Positions 17,007 through 60,900 of a stretch of DNA of 64,000 nucleotides are shown here, in pieces. The notes below the pieces were generated by a model. It worked only from the letters and a program-made list of their open reading frames with translations. It was not told the origin of the DNA and did no database searches. A program made the translations under genes and the position numbers. Where the stretch lies: the NCBI RefSeq assembly GCF_001463705.1, contig NZ_BBWH01000010.1, forward strand, positions 62,001 to 126,000, in the 5' to 3' direction. Position 1 is the stretch's first letter. The number at the start of each line of letters is the position of its first letter. Origin of the DNA: Aureimonas sp. AU12. GTDB lineage: Bacteria > Pseudomonadota > Alphaproteobacteria > Rhizobiales > Rhizobiaceae.

Positions 17007-18947
<1,941 letters not shown>

Positions 18948-27131: not shown

Positions 27132-28181
27132 TCAGCCGTCCTCGTCCTCCGCCGTGAACAGGCTGGCCTGCGTGCCCTGATAGCTCGGCGGCACGGCGAG
27201 GCCGATGTGGCGGAAGGCGTGCTGGGTCAGCATGCGGCCGCGCGGGGTGCGCTGGATGAAGCCCTGCTGCAGGAGGTAGGGCTCGACGATGTCCTCGATC
27301 GCGTCGCGCGGCTCGGAGAGCGCGGCGGCGATGGTCTCGATGCCGACGGGACCGCCGCCGAAATTGATCGCGATGAGATCGAGATAGCGCCGGTCGAGCT
27401 GGTCGAGCCCGAGCGTGTCGACCTCGAGCCGCGTCAACGCCTCGTCGGCGATGCGCCGGTCGACGATCTCGACATCCGCCATCGTGGCGAAGTCGCGCAC
27501 CCGGCGCAGCAGCCGGCCCGCGATGCGCGGGGTGCCGCGCGCCCGGCGTGCGATCTCGCGGGCGCCGTCCTCGCCCATCGGCAGGCTCATCAGCCGCGCC
27601 CCGCGCTTCACGATGTGTTCGAGCTCGGGCACGGTGTAGAAGTTCAGCCTGACGGGAATGCCGAAGCGGTCGCGCAGCGGCGTCGTCAAAAGGCCGATGC
27701 GCGTCGTCGCCGCCACCAGCGTGAACTTCGACAGGTCGATCTTCACCGAGCGCGCCGCCGGCCCCTCACCGATAATCAGGTCGAGTTGGAAATCCTCCAT
27801 CGCGGGATAGAGGATCTCCTCCACGGCGGGCGAAAGGCGGTGGATCTCGTCGATGAAGAGGACGTCGCGCTCCTCCAGATTGGTCAGCAGCGCCGCGAGG
27901 TCGCCGGCCTTGGCGATCACCGGGCCCGAGGTCGAGCGGAAGTTGACGCCGAGTTCCTTGGCCATGATCTGCGCCAGCGTCGTCTTGCCAAGGCCGGGCG
28001 GGCCGACGAAGAGCACGTGATCGAGAGCCTCGCCGCGCGTCTTGGCCGCCTCGATGAAGATCTTGAGGTTGGCGCGCGCCGCCGCCTGGCCGACGAAATC
28101 GTCGAGCCGCTGCGGGCGCAGCGTCGAATCGACGTCCTCGCCGCGCTTTTCGGGGGTCAGAAGGCGGGTGGGCTGGCTCAT
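27132..28181 (-). CDS. ruvB: Holliday junction branch migration ATPase RuvB
   Basis: RuvB is the AAA+ hexamer that pumps DNA through Holliday junctions held by RuvA. The 349-residue product has the N-terminal [11 protein letters not shown] segment, Walker [13 protein letters not shown], Walker [11 protein letters not shown], sensor [18 protein letters not shown] and the C-terminal winged-helix with TPRGRMLT, all in place. It follows ruvA by 49 bases and is therefore in the same transcript as the toxin-antitoxin pair further upstream. Confidence 0.97.
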
Positions 28182-28230: not shown

Positions 28231-28854
28231 TCAGGATCGGCTGAGCGCCTTCAGGCCCAGCCGGATGAGCGTGGTCGAGGCCGCGTCCTCGCCGCCTTCG
28301 CGCACGGCCGTCGCGACAGCACCGGCCGCCTGCTCGCGCGAATAGCCGAGATTGACGAGCGCCGAGACCGCGTCGGCGATCGGCGCGGGCGCCGTGCCCT
28401 CCCCGATCTCGCGCTTCAGGCCGAAGCTCTCCTCGGATCCGGCGCCCGAAAAGGCCGGCGCCTTGTCCTTCAGTTCGGCCACGATACGGGCGGCGACCTT
28501 CGGCCCGACGCCCGGCGCGCGCGCCACCATCGCCTTGTCCTGCAGGGCGACGGCGTTGGCGAGGTCGCCCGGCGACAGGATGCCGACCACGGCGAGCGCC
28601 ACCTTGGCACCGACGCCCTGAACGTTCTGCAAGAGGCGGAACCAGTCGCGCTCGGCCGCCGACGCGAAGCCGTAGAGGCGGATCATGTCCTCGCGAACAT
28701 AGGTCTCGATCAGCAGCACGGCCGCTTCGCCGACACTGCCGAGGCCCGCCAGCGTGCGCGCGCCGCAGAAGGCGACGTAGCCGACGCCATGGACGTCGAT
28801 CACCACATGGTCCTCGCCGATCTCGTCGACGGTGCCCTTCAACTTGCCGATCAA
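28231..28854 (-). CDS. ruvA: Holliday junction branch migration protein RuvA
   Basis: RuvA is the tetrameric DNA clamp that recognises Holliday junctions and loads RuvB. The 207-residue protein begins [19 protein letters not shown], the standard family start, then two helix-hairpin-helix motifs ([34 protein letters not shown]) and the C-terminal RuvB-binding domain ([18 protein letters not shown]). The start codon is TTG, overlapping the stop of the vapC-type gene (TTGA at 28851-28854). Translation should therefore depend partly on ribosomes that finish the toxin gene. Confidence 0.96.
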
Positions 28855-29276
28855 GGATGCGTCTCCGGCGAGAGGATATCGAGGTCGGGGAAATAGGTGC
28901 GGTAACGCCCGGCATCGCGGGTCAACAGGCGATGGCCGGCAACCAGCGCATGGGCGCCGATGAGAAAGTCCGGCAAGGTCCGCTCACGTGCTCCGCCGCG
29001 CTCGCGGTAGAGGCGATGAGCCTGCCCGGCGGGATAGGCGGCCGCGAAGGGAAAGTCCTCCTCGACGCATTCGAACGGCTGCAGCATCGCCCTGAGGAGC
29101 CGGCCGTTCGCAAAACGCTGCGTCACTTCGGCCCAGACGATCGCGTTGACGCAGATCCGACCGGCTTCTTCGGCGTCCAGCAGCATACGGGACGACCAAA
29201 GCCGCTGGTCCGGCACGGCATCGACGCCGACGAGATCGAGGATGATGTTGGAGTCAACGAGGGTCGAGATCGTCAC
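28851..29276 (-). CDS. vapC: PIN-domain ribonuclease, VapC-type toxin
   Basis: A 141-residue PIN-domain protein, the fold of VapC toxins that cleave tRNA or rRNA when released from antitoxin. Acidic active-site residues are visible: Asp8 (LVDSNIILD), Glu in [11 protein letters not shown] near 49, Asp in [10 protein letters not shown] near 101, and the conserved [12 protein letters not shown] ending near residue 130. It overlaps the antitoxin gene by 23 bases and its TGA overlaps the TTG start of ruvA. This pair is an insertion, since ruvC-ruvA-ruvB are normally contiguous in related bacteria. Confidence 0.85.
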
Positions 29277-29523
29277 GCGGGCCTCTCAGGGAGTCCATGA
29301 ATTCATCGGTCGTCATCCCCCCGAGATCGATCGTTCCGCGCATCTGGTCGAGATGACGTTGAAGCCGCTCGCGGCGCTGTTGCGGCGTCTCGTCCAGCCG
29401 CTTGGCCACGACCTCCACCGCCTCGCCGCGTTCCACGAACTCCACCTCGCTCCCCGGCCCGATCCCGAGCTTGTCGCGGATCGGCTTGGGGATGGTGACC
29501 TGGCCCTTCTCGGTGACGCGCAT
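29254..29523 (-). CDS. vapB: AbrB/SpoVT-type antitoxin (VapB-like)
   Basis: An 89-residue antitoxin. Residues 1-45 form a swapped-hairpin AbrB DNA-binding domain (MRVTEKGQVTIPKPIRDKLG, then GSEVEFVERG), and the charged C-terminus with DLGGMTTDEFMDSLRG is suited to bind the PIN toxin groove. ATG 29523 is preferred over a GTG ten codons upstream because GAGGAGG lies eight bases before it. That ribosome site spans the spacer and right arm of a perfect inverted repeat likely to be the operator for VapBC autoregulation. It starts 55 bases after ruvC. Confidence 0.87.
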   Translation of the reverse strand: MRVTEKGQVTIPKPIRDKLGIGPGSEVEFVERGEAVEVVAKRLDETPQQRRERLQRHLDQMRGTIDLGGMTTDEFMDSLRGPRDDLDPR

Positions 29524-29524
29524 C

Positions 29525-29547
29525 GGTAATACCTCCTCGGTATTACC
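29525..29547 (-). promoter_or_regulatory. Perfect inverted repeat: predicted VapBC operator including the antitoxin SD
   Basis: GGTAATACC (29525-29533) and GGTATTACC (29539-29547) are exact reverse complements separated by five bases. In the minus-strand message the GAGGAGG Shine-Dalgarno of the antitoxin begins in this spacer and ends in the second arm. AbrB-type VapB proteins bind such palindromes. The same sequence in RNA could hide the ribosome site in a hairpin. Confidence 0.75.
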
Positions 29548-29561
29548 TGTCACGGATAAGA

Positions 29562-29576
29562 GAACAGGTCAAGAAC
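29562..29576 (-). promoter_or_regulatory. LexA (SOS) box between ruvC and vapB
   Basis: GAAC-AGGTCAA-GAAC on the plus strand, which is GTTC-N7-GTTC on the coding strand, exactly matches the direct-repeat SOS box described for Rhizobiales and other Alphaproteobacteria. It lies two bases after the ruvC stop and 38 bases before the antitoxin ATG. TTGACC within it could serve as the -35 of an internal promoter; I see no convincing -10. Confidence 0.75.
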
Positions 29577-29578
29577 AT

Positions 29579-30109
29579 CTAGAGGCCGGCGAAGGCGGCG
29601 CGAGCCTGCGCCGACTGCCGGTGATGGGTATGACAGATCGCGATGGCCAGCGCGTCGGCGGCGTCGTCCGTGTCGAAGGTCGCCTTCGGCATCAGCACCT
29701 TCACCATCATGTGGATCTGCTTCTTCTCGCCGTGGCCGACGCCGATCACGGCCTTCTTCACCGCGTTCGGCGCATATTCGGCAACCGGCAGGCCGGCGAG
29801 CGCGGGCACCAGCATGGCGATGCCGCGGGCCTGGCCGAGCTTCAGCGTCGCCACCGCGTCCTTATTGACGAAGGTCTGCTCCACCGCCGCCTCTTCCGGC
29901 TGGAAATTGTGGAACACCGTCTGCAGCCCGTCGTGGAGCTGGCGCAGGCGCGAGGCGAGGTCGAGCGTGTTGTCGGACGTCACCGTGCCGCTCGCGACGA
30001 AGCGCAGCGAGTTGCCGAGCGTCTCCACCACGCCCCAGCCGGTGCGGCGCAGGCCCGGATCGATACCGATGATGCGAATGGTCCGCCCCTGCAACATGTT
30101 GGTCTTCAC
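29579..30109 (-). CDS. ruvC: Crossover junction endodeoxyribonuclease RuvC
   Basis: RuvC resolves Holliday junctions by paired nicks. The 176-residue product has the RNase H-like fold with the first catalytic Asp in [14 protein letters not shown], Glu in [13 protein letters not shown], and the last acidic pair in [19 protein letters not shown] 30109 has AGGG six bases upstream; a second ATG at 30097 is possible. In relatives ruvA follows directly; here a toxin-antitoxin pair intervenes. Upstream on the other strand is a serine hydrolase gene, and a one-mismatch SOS box is 44-58 bases before the start. Confidence 0.96.
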
Positions 30110-30152: not shown

Positions 30153-30167
30153 GAACGGAGCGGAAAC
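30153..30167 (-). promoter_or_regulatory. Near-match LexA (SOS) box upstream of ruvC
   Basis: GAAC-GGAGCGG-AAAC on the plus strand matches the GAAC-N7-GAAC SOS box at seven of eight fixed positions. It is 44-58 bases upstream of the ruvC ATG, a sensible promoter location, but one mismatch leaves LexA binding uncertain. Confidence 0.5.
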
Positions 30168-54545: not shown

Positions 54546-54846
54546 GGGAGGAAACAACGAGTATCTGGACGACGTCCCACGCACCCTCGACGGGCCGTGC
54601 GGTCGCAAATTGTCGAACGTCGTCTGGATGGGCCGAGGGATAGGCGCCCGGCATAGCCACCCGGGAAAGACGTCGCCCGGGTCCTTGTGCGCGGGCTTCA
54701 TCGCTTAAAAACCGGTAAAGATCAACTGGCCATGGTTTCATGGCCTGGGCGGCCGGGCGGGATGACGCAGGGCCTTGCGATCGCCACGAAGATGGATTCT
54801 TCAGGGAACAAGAGACGAACAGCTGACGACTTCAGAGCGAACGCGC
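54546..54846. other. Divergent SulP/pdeM promoter region
   Basis: This 301-base gap contains a perfect inverted repeat GGCCATG (54728-54734), loop GTTT, CATGGCC (54739-54745), and a perfect SOS box at 54806-54820. TTGCGA at 54775-54780 could be a -35 for pdeM; no clear -10 is visible. I see no coding frame with genuine character. Confidence 0.5.
54806..54820 (+). promoter_or_regulatory. LexA (SOS) box upstream of pdeM
   Basis: GAAC-AAGAGAC-GAAC is an exact match to the alphaproteobacterial SOS direct repeat GAAC-N7-GAAC. It ends 26 bases before the pdeM ATG, where bound LexA would block initiation or elongation. This fits the DNA-damage role of the gene. Confidence 0.75.
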
Positions 54847-55566
54847 ATGAACATGATCCAGCGGCGACTGCGACAGGGCGAGCAGGCCGGCGTCGAGACC
54901 GAGTTGAACGGCGGCACGCTCGTCTGCGACCCGTCGGGCATCCTGTTCTCGCCGGGCGAGAGCCTTCTCGTCGTTTCCGACCTGCATCTGGAGAAGGGCG
55001 CGGCCTTTGCCCGGCGCGGCATGATGCTGCCGCCCTACGACACCGCCGCCACGCTGGCGCTGCTCGAATCCGCGATCCGGCGCTACGAGCCGCGGCGTGT
55101 CGTGTGCCTGGGTGACAGCTTCCACGACCGGCACGGCGCGGCCTTCATGCCGGCGATCTACCGCGAGGCGCTGAACGCCCTGATGAAGGGGCGCGACTGG
55201 ATCTGGATCGTCGGCAACCACGACCCGGAGCCGCCGGCTCTCTTGGGCGGCGAGACCACCGAGGAGGCTGCGATCGGCCCCTGGCTGCTGCGCCACGAGC
55301 CGACGCCGCACCCGCGCGCAGGCGAGATCGCGGGCCATCTCCATCCGGTGGCGAAGGTTTCGGGCAACGGGCGTTCGGTGCGCGGCGCGTGCTTCGCGAC
55401 CGACGGCACGCGCATGGTGATGCCCTCCTTCGGCGTCACCACGGGCGGGCTCAACGTTCTCGACCGGGCCTTCGCGGGGCTCTTCGCGCCCGAGTGCGCG
55501 AAAGCCTACGTCATCGGCGTCTCGCGCATCTACCCGATCCCCTTCACCGCGCTCTGCGCGCGGTGA
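54847..55566 (+). CDS. pdeM: Ligase-associated DNA damage response endonuclease PdeM
   Basis: A 239-residue calcineurin-like phosphoesterase of the TIGR04123 class, a nuclease encoded with ligase, Lhr-type helicase and exonuclease in many bacteria. Dimetal motifs are VVSDLHLEKG, CLGDSFHDRHG, IVGNHDPEPP and AGHLHPVAK, all intact. ATG 54847 puts the first beta strand in place; an earlier ATG at 54775 would add 24 residues and swallow the SOS box, so it is unlikely. It stands alone here, away from its usual partners, and is probably LexA-controlled. Confidence 0.9.
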   Translation: MNMIQRRLRQGEQAGVETELNGGTLVCDPSGILFSPGESLLVVSDLHLEKGAAFARRGMMLPPYDTAATLALLESAIRRYEPRRVVCLGDSFHDRHGAAFMPAIYREALNALMKGRDWIWIVGNHDPEPPALLGGETTEEAAIGPWLLRHEPTPHPRAGEIAGHLHPVAKVSGNGRSVRGACFATDGTRMVMPSFGVTTGGLNVLDRAFAGLFAPECAKAYVIGVSRIYPIPFTALCAR

Positions 55567-57945: not shown

Positions 57946-60900
57946 TCAGGCGTCCTTGCGCTCCAGAAGCGCGCGGATCAGCGGCTCGTCGATCTTGCCG
58001 GTGGCCTGCAGGCCCGACTTCTCCTGGAACTCGCGGATGGCGGTGGTGGTCTGCGAGCCGACCACGCCGTCGGGGCGACCCGGGTTGTAGCCGAGCTTGA
58101 TCAGGATCGCCTGCACGTTGCGCACGGCCCGGCCCATGTCGACCGAGGCGGTCTGGTCGCCCTTGGCGGACCAGGCTGGCGGGATCTCCACCGTGTTCGC
58201 GCCCTCGTTGCGGGCGGCCGGCTTCCAGGCGGCGACCTCGGCGTCGATGCGGGTGCGCACCTCCGGCGACAAGGTCTTGCCGACCTCTTCCATCTTGGCC
58301 AGCGCGTCCTTGTCGCCGGCCTGGCCGACGATCTGGAACCAGCGGTAGGACTGCGACAGGTCCTGCTCGACGCCGGCACCGCGGGCATAGAGGATGCCGA
58401 GATTGTACTGGCTGTCGCGCATGCCGTGATCGGCAGCCTTCACGAACCACTGCGCCGCCGTCTCGGGGTCGGACTTGCCCTCGATGCCGGTGGCATAGAG
58501 CACCGCCAGATTGTGCATGGCGCGGATGTTGCCCTGGTCGGCGGCCAGGAGATACCAGTCGCGCGCAGCGCCCGTGTCGCGGCCGATGCCGTTGCCCTTC
58601 TCGAAGAGCGTGCCGACCGAGTACTGTGCCGGGGCGAAGCCGCGCGAGGCGGACTGACCGAACCAGTTAAGCGCGGCGACCGGATCGGACGGCGCGGACC
58701 GGCCCTCCATCAGGCGCAGACCCACCTCGAACATCGCCATCGGCTCGCCCTTGGCGACGGCTTCGCCGAGCGCGGCGGGGCCGATGCCGTCGGGCATGGC
58801 GGGAACCGCGCCACGCGCCGCTTCCGGCAGCTTGGCCTCGGCGCTGGCGAGGAGCGTGCCCTGCGCCGTTGCGGCAACCGGGGCAACGTTTACGGCGGGC
58901 TCGGCGGCGACTTCGGCCGTCACCGGCATCGTCGCGGTGGCAGTGATGGGTGCTTCGACCGTCGGCAGTTCGGCAGCGGGTGCCTCGGCGACCACGGGCG
59001 GCGCCACCTCTTCGGTCGCAGCGCTCATCTCGGCCGGGGCCGGGGCCGGGACGATCGTCGCGGTGCTTTCGGTGTCGAGCACCGGAGCGGGCGTCTCGAT
59101 TGCCGGGGTCGGAGCTGCGGCGGCGATCTGCGAGCCGTCGTCGACTTCGGCGACCGGCGCGGCGACGACGCCGTCCTGCGGGCCGAAATAGGCGCGGCCG
59201 AGCGGCATGGCCATGAGCGCCAGAAGCACCGCGCCCACCGCCATGAGGATCGGCTTGCGACGACGGCCGGCCTGATCCTTCGTGGTCAGGCCATCGGCGT
59301 CGGCATCGGTCCGGTCACGGATCGCCTCGGCTTCGGCGGCGGCCGCCATCGCCGCCTTGCGGGCGGCAGCGATGAAGTCGGCCTTGGCCAGCGGCTCGCC
59401 CGTCGGTGGCTCGATGCCGCGCTGCTGCTGGCGCACGCGCTCGATGAGCGCGGCGATGTCGGGCGCGCCGGAGCCGGGCTCGAGCGGACGATTGGCCTCG
59501 CGTGTCGCGACGCTCTCGGCGGCGTCGATGGAGGGTGCGTCGATGAGCAGGGGCGCATTCGAACGGATCAGGGCGGCAGGTTCCACGCTCGGCAGGGTCG
59601 CGGCGACGGGATCCGCCATGACGGCGACGGTCGGATGCACGCGTTCGGCGAGGGTCGGCACCTCGGCGGCCGGCTCCTTGCCGCCGCGACGCGTTAGGTG
59701 ACGGTTGATCGCGGCGCGAAGGCCCTTCGGCTCGGCGTCGGGTGCGGCCTCGGAGGCGGCCCAGTCGATGCGACCGGCCGAATCCTGCGACGGCTGGACC
59801 GTCTTCGACTCGTTCGCCGCATCGCTGCGCAGCTCGCTCTCGATCGCCGTCAGCCGCTCGACGATCTTGTGCAGCGTCGTATGGACGGCGTCGAACACGC
59901 CGAAGGCGCGCTCGTCGCTTTCGCGGCAGAGGGTCTCCAGATTGCGCAGGTCCTGCGCGAGTTCGCGTACATACTCGTTCTCGCGGCGTCCATCCTCGCC
60001 CTGCATGCGGCGCACGGCCTCGTCCGCAGCGGTGCGGGCGGCCATGAGGATCGAGTCGCGGTTCTCGTCGAGCTGGCGCTCCAGCGCGTCGAGGCGGCGG
60101 GAGACCTCCGAGCCCTCTTCGCCGAACGCGATCGGCGCACCGGCGAGATGATCGGCGAGACGGCCGATCTGGGCTTCGAGCGCCATCATGACGGCGGGAT
60201 CGACGCCCTTGGCGCCGGCCGACAGCTCGATGCGCTCGGCCAGTTCCGTCAGGCGCGCCTCGAAACGAGACGACGTGTCTTTGGGTTCGGAGTTGGCGAA
60301 GAGGATCTCGACGCGCTCGGCAAGCGTGTCGATGCGGCGACCGAGATCGGCATCGGGCCGGGCGCCCAGTTCCTCGACGCGCTCGGTGAGGACCGCGATC
60401 TGTTCCGACAGGAGATCGGCGTCGCCGGCCTCGGACAGGCGCTCGACGCGCGAGGCGATCTCGGCGACGCGCGCCTCGATCCGCTCGATCGGCGCCATGT
60501 CGAGGGAGACCTGACGATGGACGGTGGCCGAGACGATCGCCGCGGAAATCTCGTCGAGTCGCTCTTCCAGAACCGAGAAATGATCGAGATCGGGTTCGCG
60601 AATTTCGGCGGCCAGCAGTTCGACGCTTTCGGCCAGCGCCTGGATGCGCGCCTCCATCTGGTCGATCTGCAGGATCTCGGGCAGGCCGACGAGCGCCAGC
60701 TCGATCTCGCCCATGCGCTCCGACAGGCGGGCGATGCCGCCTTCCACAGCCTTGGTTGAGAACCGCTCGGCCATCGCGTCGAAGCGGGCATCGAGGGCTT
60801 CGGGAGCGTTCTGCTCGACGATGAGGTCGAGCTTGGTGCGCAGCGCGCCGAGTTCGTCGCGCAGGAAGCGCGTCAGCGTCTCCTCGGTCTGGATCCGCGC

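Follow-up and report, generated by a model that had tools for sequence, protein, structure and literature searches.

The ruv region of Aureimonas sp. AU12 most probably contains an internal ruvAB promoter whose -35 hexamer is fused to a LexA operator, and a VapBC-type toxin-antitoxin module inserted behind it has added an operator of its own, such that transcription would be under two-repressor control. The locus lies in a stretch of 64,000 nucleotides (contig NZ_BBWH01000010.1, positions 62,001 to 126,000; the whole stretch is referred to here as the window), the nearest named relative of which is Aureimonas pseudogalii (97% by RuvC), and the genes ruvC, vapB, vapC, ruvA and ruvB follow one another in that order on its minus strand (Table 1). 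This reading draws on what is directly observed, namely the anatomy of the locus, the conservation of the box and of its spacing, the identity of the genes, a LexA box elsewhere in the same genome, and the variability of the module.

Table 1. Features of the ruvC-vapBC-ruvAB locus in the window
Feature	Position	Strand	Basis or remark
LexA-like box upstream of ruvC, GTTTCCGCTCCGTTC	30153..30167	-	one mismatch to GTTC-N7-GTTC
ruvC	29579..30109	-	Pfam PF02075, TIGR00228
candidate LexA box GTTCTTGACCTGTTC	29562..29576	-	exact GTTC-N7-GTTC; conserved at ruvC-vapBC-ruvA junctions
candidate -35 hexamer TTGACC, within box	29567..29572	-	fixed geometry across loci
candidate -10 position CAGGTA, 17 nt from -35	29544..29549	-	TARGTA in most relatives
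candidate VapBC operator	29525..29547	-	perfect 9-bp inverted repeat, 5-nt spacer; overlaps -10 position and Shine-Dalgarno
vapB Shine-Dalgarno GAGGAGG	29532..29538	-	inside operator (spacer and right arm); from sequence
vapB, AbrB/MazE-type antitoxin	29254..29523	-	PF04014 6e-12, TIGR01439; ATG at 29523
vapC, PIN-domain toxin gene, overlaps vapB	28851..29276	-	PF01850 2e-6; D8, E50, D103, D121
ruvA, TTG start, 4-nt overlap with vapC stop	28231..28854	-	TIGR00084
ruvB	27132..28181	-	TIGR00635

The box begins two bases past the ruvC stop codon, a TAG that ends at 29579, and 14 bases past the box lies GGTAATACC-GAGGA-GGTATTACC, whose 9-bp arms are exactly complementary. Both elements had been described in the first-pass annotation, as GAAC-N7-GAAC two bases past the ruvC stop and a perfect 9-bp palindrome holding the Shine-Dalgarno sequence, and on re-reading the coordinates, spacing and sequence are all as it gave them. 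In the window vapBC lies between the candidate LexA-controlled promoter and ruvA, and no terminator was found between them. Pfam and NCBIfam profiles identify RuvC, RuvA, RuvB, an AbrB/MazE-type antitoxin and a PIN-domain protein; the antitoxin gene is followed by the overlapping toxin gene, with PF04014 and PF01850 both above their cut-offs. VapC falls far below the cut-off of the NCBIfam VapC equivalog NF047959 (27 versus 80 bits), and is therefore treated as a divergent VapC-like PIN protein, the pair being named VapBC-like by its anatomy. Its residues D8, E50, D103 and D121 are those that we take to be the acidic catalytic residues of PIN domains. A sequence search of solved structures found no relative of VapC, and for VapB only four marginal matches (E 0.0004 to 0.0095, to a short hypothetical protein and engineered or designed proteins), of which no use is made. 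A phage origin of the module was considered and rejected, the antitoxin having no match in the phage collection.

The motif GTTC-N7-GTTC is given as the alphaproteobacterial LexA box in PMC3323433, PMC9578287 and PMC12700426 (here and below, papers given by PMC number are cited from excerpts of their text unless the main text is named), and ATGTTC-N6-TGTTC fits the Caulobacter LexA consensus, (T/A)TGTTC(N6)TGTTC (PMC13384398). The lexA gene of the same genome (G000:C1:59966-60682, minus strand) has GTTCCGTATGTGTTC upstream, with the box at 60725-60739. GTTC-N7-GTTC is also found upstream of ssb, of a dnaE gene (DNA polymerase III alpha, two boxes) and of an splB-like gene, a PA0069-type radical SAM gene by family that we equate with splB because its relatives in L162 and L165 weakly match spore photoproduct lyase. 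Sites predicted to bind LexA have been reported ahead of splB, and dnaE is cited as SOS regulated in Caulobacter (PMC3323433). Four of the 20 own-genome box regions picked from 100 of the 141 matches are tied to SOS-type genes by family, and most of the others are inside open reading frames or beside unnamed ones. At recA of this genome a forward scan found no box, and only a one-mismatch, reverse-oriented site (GTACTCTTTTTGTTC) was seen by eye. Both observations count against the LexA reading.

Across the order, the pattern GTTCTTGACNTGTTC occurs at 66 sites (65 fetched, plus the window) in 58 of 397 genomes, compared to 3 control sites. These comprise 15 with an AbrB-type vapBC between ruvC and ruvA, 22 ahead of ruvA in loci that lack an intact AbrB module, 21 ahead of other genes and 8 that look intragenic, the division of the last 29 being judged from open reading frames. 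A radical SAM gene follows 10 of the 21 other-gene sites, identified by family search in L162 and L165 and by a near-identical start in eight, and the boxes of L139–L141 precede a similar gene, of which the one searched matched ImuA weakly and below cut-off. The pattern is not a class-wide feature, with only 9 sites in 385 genomes (own included) versus 4 control sites, and the 8 non-window sites have no ruv or vap homologue nearby.

Some further boxes are noted here in their own right. In the window, GAACAAGAGACGAAC at 54806-54820 (plus strand) is 26 bases before the ATG of 54847-55566 (plus strand), the gene for PdeM (TIGR04123), a ligase-associated DNA-damage-response endonuclease, which makes this gene another candidate for LexA control. 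The window's third GTTC-N7-GTTC, at 18219-18233, is inside ftsH and is probably a chance occurrence. In L125 and L127, from two genomes of one family, a box (at 1501-1515 in each) and, after it, additional GTTC repeats precede a gene for a short protein, which is perhaps strongly LexA-controlled; an NCBIfam search with the L127 protein found no match.

Neither element is rare alone: GTTC-N7-GTTC is seen 3 times in the window against an expectation of 1.66 (21 of 100 dinucleotide shuffles reach 3), and there are 19 nine-bp inverted repeats with loops of 3–8 nt. Of 20,000 mononucleotide shuffles of the 55-nt gap between ruvC and vapB, 0.125% contain the box and 0.045% the inverted repeat. These shuffles, like the junction, ruvC-upstream and VapC-fossil shuffles below, preserve base composition only. 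What decides that the box is real is its conservation and not the lone motif. First, it is present in all 55 distinct ruvC-vapBC-ruvA junctions tabulated, perfectly in 50 and with one mismatch in five, and shuffled vapBC junctions have a perfect box in 0.2% of cases and one with up to one mismatch in 5.4%. Secondly, none of these 55 junctions departs from GTT and TGTTC within the box, while the columns next to them vary. Thirdly, a VapC match is found in 16 of the 21 genomes of the genus, in all 16 between ruvC and ruvA and behind the box. Box and operator are both conserved over dozens of species, and conservation at the junctions rules out a chance match for the box. Junctions without an intact vapBC have the box in 11 of 76 cases.

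The 126 distinct ruvC-ruvA-linked junctions kept for this comparison were drawn from 80 named ruvC loci, 16 genus loci and 56 ruvA-upstream regions. Selection of the named and genus loci was based on RuvC or VapC and took no account of the box, and the 56 regions, mostly one per genus, were hand-chosen from 150 listed RuvA places (387 of the 397 genomes matched). That survey omitted 18 listed genomes with box sites already fetched by pattern, and because these contain the 15-mer site it leans against boxes. The 11/76 is composed of the table before additions (3 perfect, 3 one-mismatch and 65 boxless vapBC-less junctions, i.e. 6/71 with a box) plus L146, L148, L178, L181 and L184, the five vapBC-less, ruvC-linked loci among those 18; the remaining vapBC-less box sites, most of them in family f23, fall outside the frame of 76 junctions. 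L081 (the same as the window), L188 (a duplicate) and other duplicates by an 80-nt key were dropped, L203, L212, L221 and L225 were left out with no detectable ruvC, and in L206, where BLAST missed ruvC, its stop was placed by hand. Nine loci with no ruvA found beside ruvC were set aside, namely eight from Jiella and L010, a box-bearing locus on a contig that breaks off within vapB. We note that in these Jiella loci (L012, L021, L033, L036, L037, L043, L054 and L067) no ruvA was found in the 4 kb that follow ruvC, which suggests that their operon is split, and that in L195, L197, L213, L216 and L219, from several families, 0.7 to 1.3 kb separates ruvC from ruvA with no VapB or VapC match.

The box appears to belong to ruvAB rather than to the toxin-antitoxin genes. 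It directly precedes ruvA without a toxin-antitoxin module in several loci (e.g. L121, L123, L129 and L150; also L078), in L133 the slot behind it holds a Phd-type antitoxin and a PIN toxin, an AbrB-type gene stands alone in L122 and L154, and L024 and L137 contain module fragments. No box (up to one mismatch, within 130 nt upstream) is found at any of 13 same-family vapBC loci outside ruv, which are plasmid loci (12 alphaproteobacterial and one cyanobacterial) drawn from 30 listed of 132 records. In correction of the first-pass reading, the box is not tied to the toxin-antitoxin module, and because the box precedes ruvA without such a module, and also a Phd-PIN module, it is best viewed as a ruvAB SOS promoter element behind which toxin-antitoxin genes were inserted. 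Among the 39 vapBC-less junctions that are 10 nt or longer, 4 (L018, L024, L058 and L072) have an apparent VapC C-terminus just before ruvA, versus 0.1% of composition-preserving shuffles, and these remnants point to past loss of the module. The locus fetched as a fourteenth control, L243 (NZ_CP069303.1), is itself a ruvC-vapBC junction with a box; the 4.6-Mb record bears the label of a Shinella plasmid but probably represents a chromosome.

A box is also associated with ruvC itself. Of 84 loci, 71 have GTTY-N7-GTTC at -65 to -25 relative to ruvC, compared to 0.5% of shuffles preserving base composition, and with this conserved box a second SOS promoter in the operon is probable. The junction box of the first-pass annotation is thus joined by a second candidate LexA box, upstream of ruvC in the window (Table 1). 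Putative LexA sites have been reported in ruvCAB promoters of Alphaproteobacteria (PMC3323433), and Caulobacter ruvC is described as a late SOS gene (PMC12700426).

The module behind the junction box is intact and highly variable. All 55 VapC genes have an open reading frame, with D8, E50, D103 and D121 invariant in 55/55, and vapC overlaps ruvA by 4 nt in 34 of the 55 loci. Among pairs with at least 92% RuvC and at least 85% RuvA identity, VapC is below 60% identical in 101 of 164 (the pairs not being independent). For example, Neorhizobium galegae bv. officinalis (L048) and N. vignae (L052) share 100% identity in RuvC and 99% in RuvA, compared to 43% in VapB and 47% in VapC, and their DNA identity drops shortly after vapB begins, about 80 nt past the ruvC stop, and returns where vapC meets ruvA. 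The window and A. pseudogalii have the same module (VapC 93%). The VapC tree appears to intermix species, in line with swapping, and four modules with another operator seem to cluster with plasmid VapC proteins. The toxin-antitoxin module is, by these comparisons, often swapped between near-identical ruvC and ruvA flanks with the box unchanged.

A first alternative is that LexA binds and the SOS response matters for ruvAB only, with VapBC a passive selfish insertion in which autorepression balances toxin and antitoxin, so that damage gives rise to no toxin activity; we give this somewhat less than an even chance. A co-transcribed antitoxin normally neutralises its toxin, which favours a passive role, as do the lineages with a box and no module (L078, L121, L123, L129 and others), the decayed modules of L024 and L137, and the many junctions without toxin-antitoxin genes. 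Against it are the 55 intact VapC genes with their invariant acidic residues, and Caulobacter HigB, which is under the same kind of control and has toxin-dependent phenotypes (PMC13384398). This alternative overlaps with the two-repressor reading in its regulatory part, and we put the chance of a mostly passive module at about one half.

The swapping also suggests a broader scheme, which we put forward tentatively and consider rather doubtful: the space that separates ruvA from the putative SOS promoter of ruvAB may be a conserved docking slot of this order, in which toxin-antitoxin modules are exchanged by recombination through the flanks and the LexA box and promoter do not change. The result would be allelic diversity of these modules within an operon whose products resolve recombination intermediates, so that SOS, toxin-antitoxin state and branch migration form one switch, with selection favouring module diversity. 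Such diversity would be expected if the modules act against incoming DNA or phage, or mark kin in recombination.

A further alternative, which we consider unlikely, is that the insertion lowers RuvAB, with VapBC autorepression tying RuvAB supply to the antitoxin and the cost being kept because the module is addictive. An operator that covers both the Shine-Dalgarno sequence and the -10 position is consistent with this, as is the overlap of vapC and ruvA in 34/55 loci, and module loss seems to leave VapC fossils in 4/39 vapBC-less junctions. However, the putative SOS promoter of ruvC (box in 71/84 loci) could supply ruvAB by read-through, and a terminator scan found none between the promoter of ruvC and ruvAB in the window.

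The geometry of the junctions bears on the two-repressor reading. A GTAWTAC-type operator is present in 46 of the 55 vapBC junctions, and its left arm starts at position 31 from the box start in 46/46, the intervening sequence being variable; this places TTGACT 17 nt ahead of TARGTA. TA is present at the -10 position (spacing 16–18) in 21 of the 22 sites before ruvA without an intact AbrB-type vapBC, and in 20 of the 21 other-gene sites compared to none of the 8 presumed intragenic sites. This pattern suggests that the box and the -10 form a separate promoter unit. Five junctions in two other families have GTTT- or GTTG-N7-GTTC in the same place and lack the GTAWTAC operator; four of these have a TTCTTAC-type repeat instead, and four have, by eye, a -35-like hexamer before the box and a -10-like hexamer directly after it, 17 nt apart. 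A predicted LexA site and a predicted antitoxin site, both conserved, thus appear to be stacked on one candidate promoter of the toxin-antitoxin genes. The claim of a two-repressor promoter is accordingly upheld as to the stacked box and operator, for which there is comparative evidence, and is weaker as to the promoter in the window itself, where the -10 position is CAGGTA, unlike the TA of most relatives, and where a strict consensus sigma-70 scan found no promoter.

The presence of TTGAC inside the box, with a -10 position 17 nt on, would also fit a constitutive promoter of the toxin-antitoxin genes only, with a CTTGAC -35 and coincidental GTTC half-sites. This seems very improbable: GTT and TGTTC extend beyond the -35 and are invariant in 55/55 junctions, the five junctions that lose TTGAC keep a one-mismatch GTTC-N7-GTTC (in four of them, by eye, between -35-like and -10-like hexamers), and the box is absent from the 13 same-family vapBC loci elsewhere. 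That the box is a second antitoxin site of the VapBC operator, as its constant nearness to the operator at fixed spacing might suggest, is scarcely credible given that it persists with other operators, with a Phd-type module, without any toxin-antitoxin genes and before unrelated genes, and is missing from 13/13 same-family vapBC loci outside ruv.

Returning to the reading that we favour, in which VapBC was inserted between a LexA-controlled internal promoter and ruvA, LexA would cover the -35 and VapBC would cover the -10 and the antitoxin Shine-Dalgarno sequence. DNA damage would lead to LexA cleavage, and output would then be set by free VapBC; with two operators on one promoter, full firing would be expected only with LexA cleaved and free VapBC scarce. 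Toxin, antitoxin, RuvA and RuvB would rise together, with RuvA and RuvB on the same message. Binding by LexA and VapBC, promoter activity, co-transcription into ruvAB, induction by damage and toxin activity are all predictions from sequence in this scheme, and its steps draw on the anatomy of the locus and on cited knowledge of the families.

In E. coli, a toxin-antitoxin pair is located after dinB in an operon for which Singletary 2009 is reportedly the reference. The pair is yafNO and the operon, dinB-yafN-yafO-yafP, is SOS regulated (PMC9578287); it resembles the locus described here in having a toxin-antitoxin pair within an SOS-regulated DNA-damage operon, and differs in that YafNO is not VapBC and the LexA box is gammaproteobacterial. 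A closer parallel is higBA of Caulobacter crescentus, which is repressed by LexA and HigA and drives the downstream gene higX (PMC13384398). Both are alphaproteobacterial type II toxin-antitoxin promoters with LexA and antitoxin sites, predicted ones in the locus described here, and with the same LexA consensus, and both have a third gene downstream, which in Caulobacter is driven mainly by the same promoter. They differ in that the Caulobacter toxin is of the HigB family and restricted to the crescentus/vibrioides lineage, in that its downstream gene is an envelope regulator and not a repair gene, and in that its LexA site came with higBA, whereas here the site is also present without a toxin-antitoxin module (PMC13384398). 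In some Vibrionaceae there are separate LexA sites before ruvC and ruvAB, and in others one or two genes are inserted between ruvC and ruvAB (PMC3323433); the separate sites and inserted genes parallel the two candidate sites and the inserted module described here, but the box is different and no toxin-antitoxin genes are named in the excerpts of that paper.

The association of vapBC with ruvAB has itself been described in Rhizobium leguminosarum 3841, where vapB-vapC lies directly upstream of ruvA-ruvB (RL3987–RL3990) and all four genes are reported as needed for root attachment by insertion sequencing (PMC11406972). Judged by the published description of the locus, vapBC adjoins ruvAB as it does here; the main text of that paper has no occurrence of 'lexa', and in the parts covered the promoter and its conservation are not discussed. 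Among the matches listed in the open-access literature, a LexA-controlled vapBC in ruvCAB was not found, the main text of the Makarova 2009 toxin-antitoxin survey (PMC2701414) does not contain ruvA, ruvB or ruvC, and the excerpts of a Bosea VapBC paper (PMC8522696) contain no 'ruv'. The first-pass description of a new damage-response design is nonetheless too strong, being preceded by Caulobacter higBA (PMC13384398), E. coli dinB-yafNO (PMC9578287) and R. leguminosarum vapBC-ruvAB (PMC11406972); with these already described the arrangement is not wholly new, and it is the evolutionary pattern that is unusual. The published SOS-regulated toxins that we found are each described in one species or lineage, whereas in many soil and plant bacteria, from several families of one large order, a core recombination operon retains the same regulatory slot and the toxin pair in it is repeatedly swapped, such that the role of a damage-induced toxin-antitoxin system becomes testable. 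The module may aid repair through growth arrest while RuvAB works, may be a parasite anchored in a needed operon, or may be under diversifying selection, and the arrangement suggests a possible reason why vapBC-ruvAB insertions in R. leguminosarum affect root attachment.
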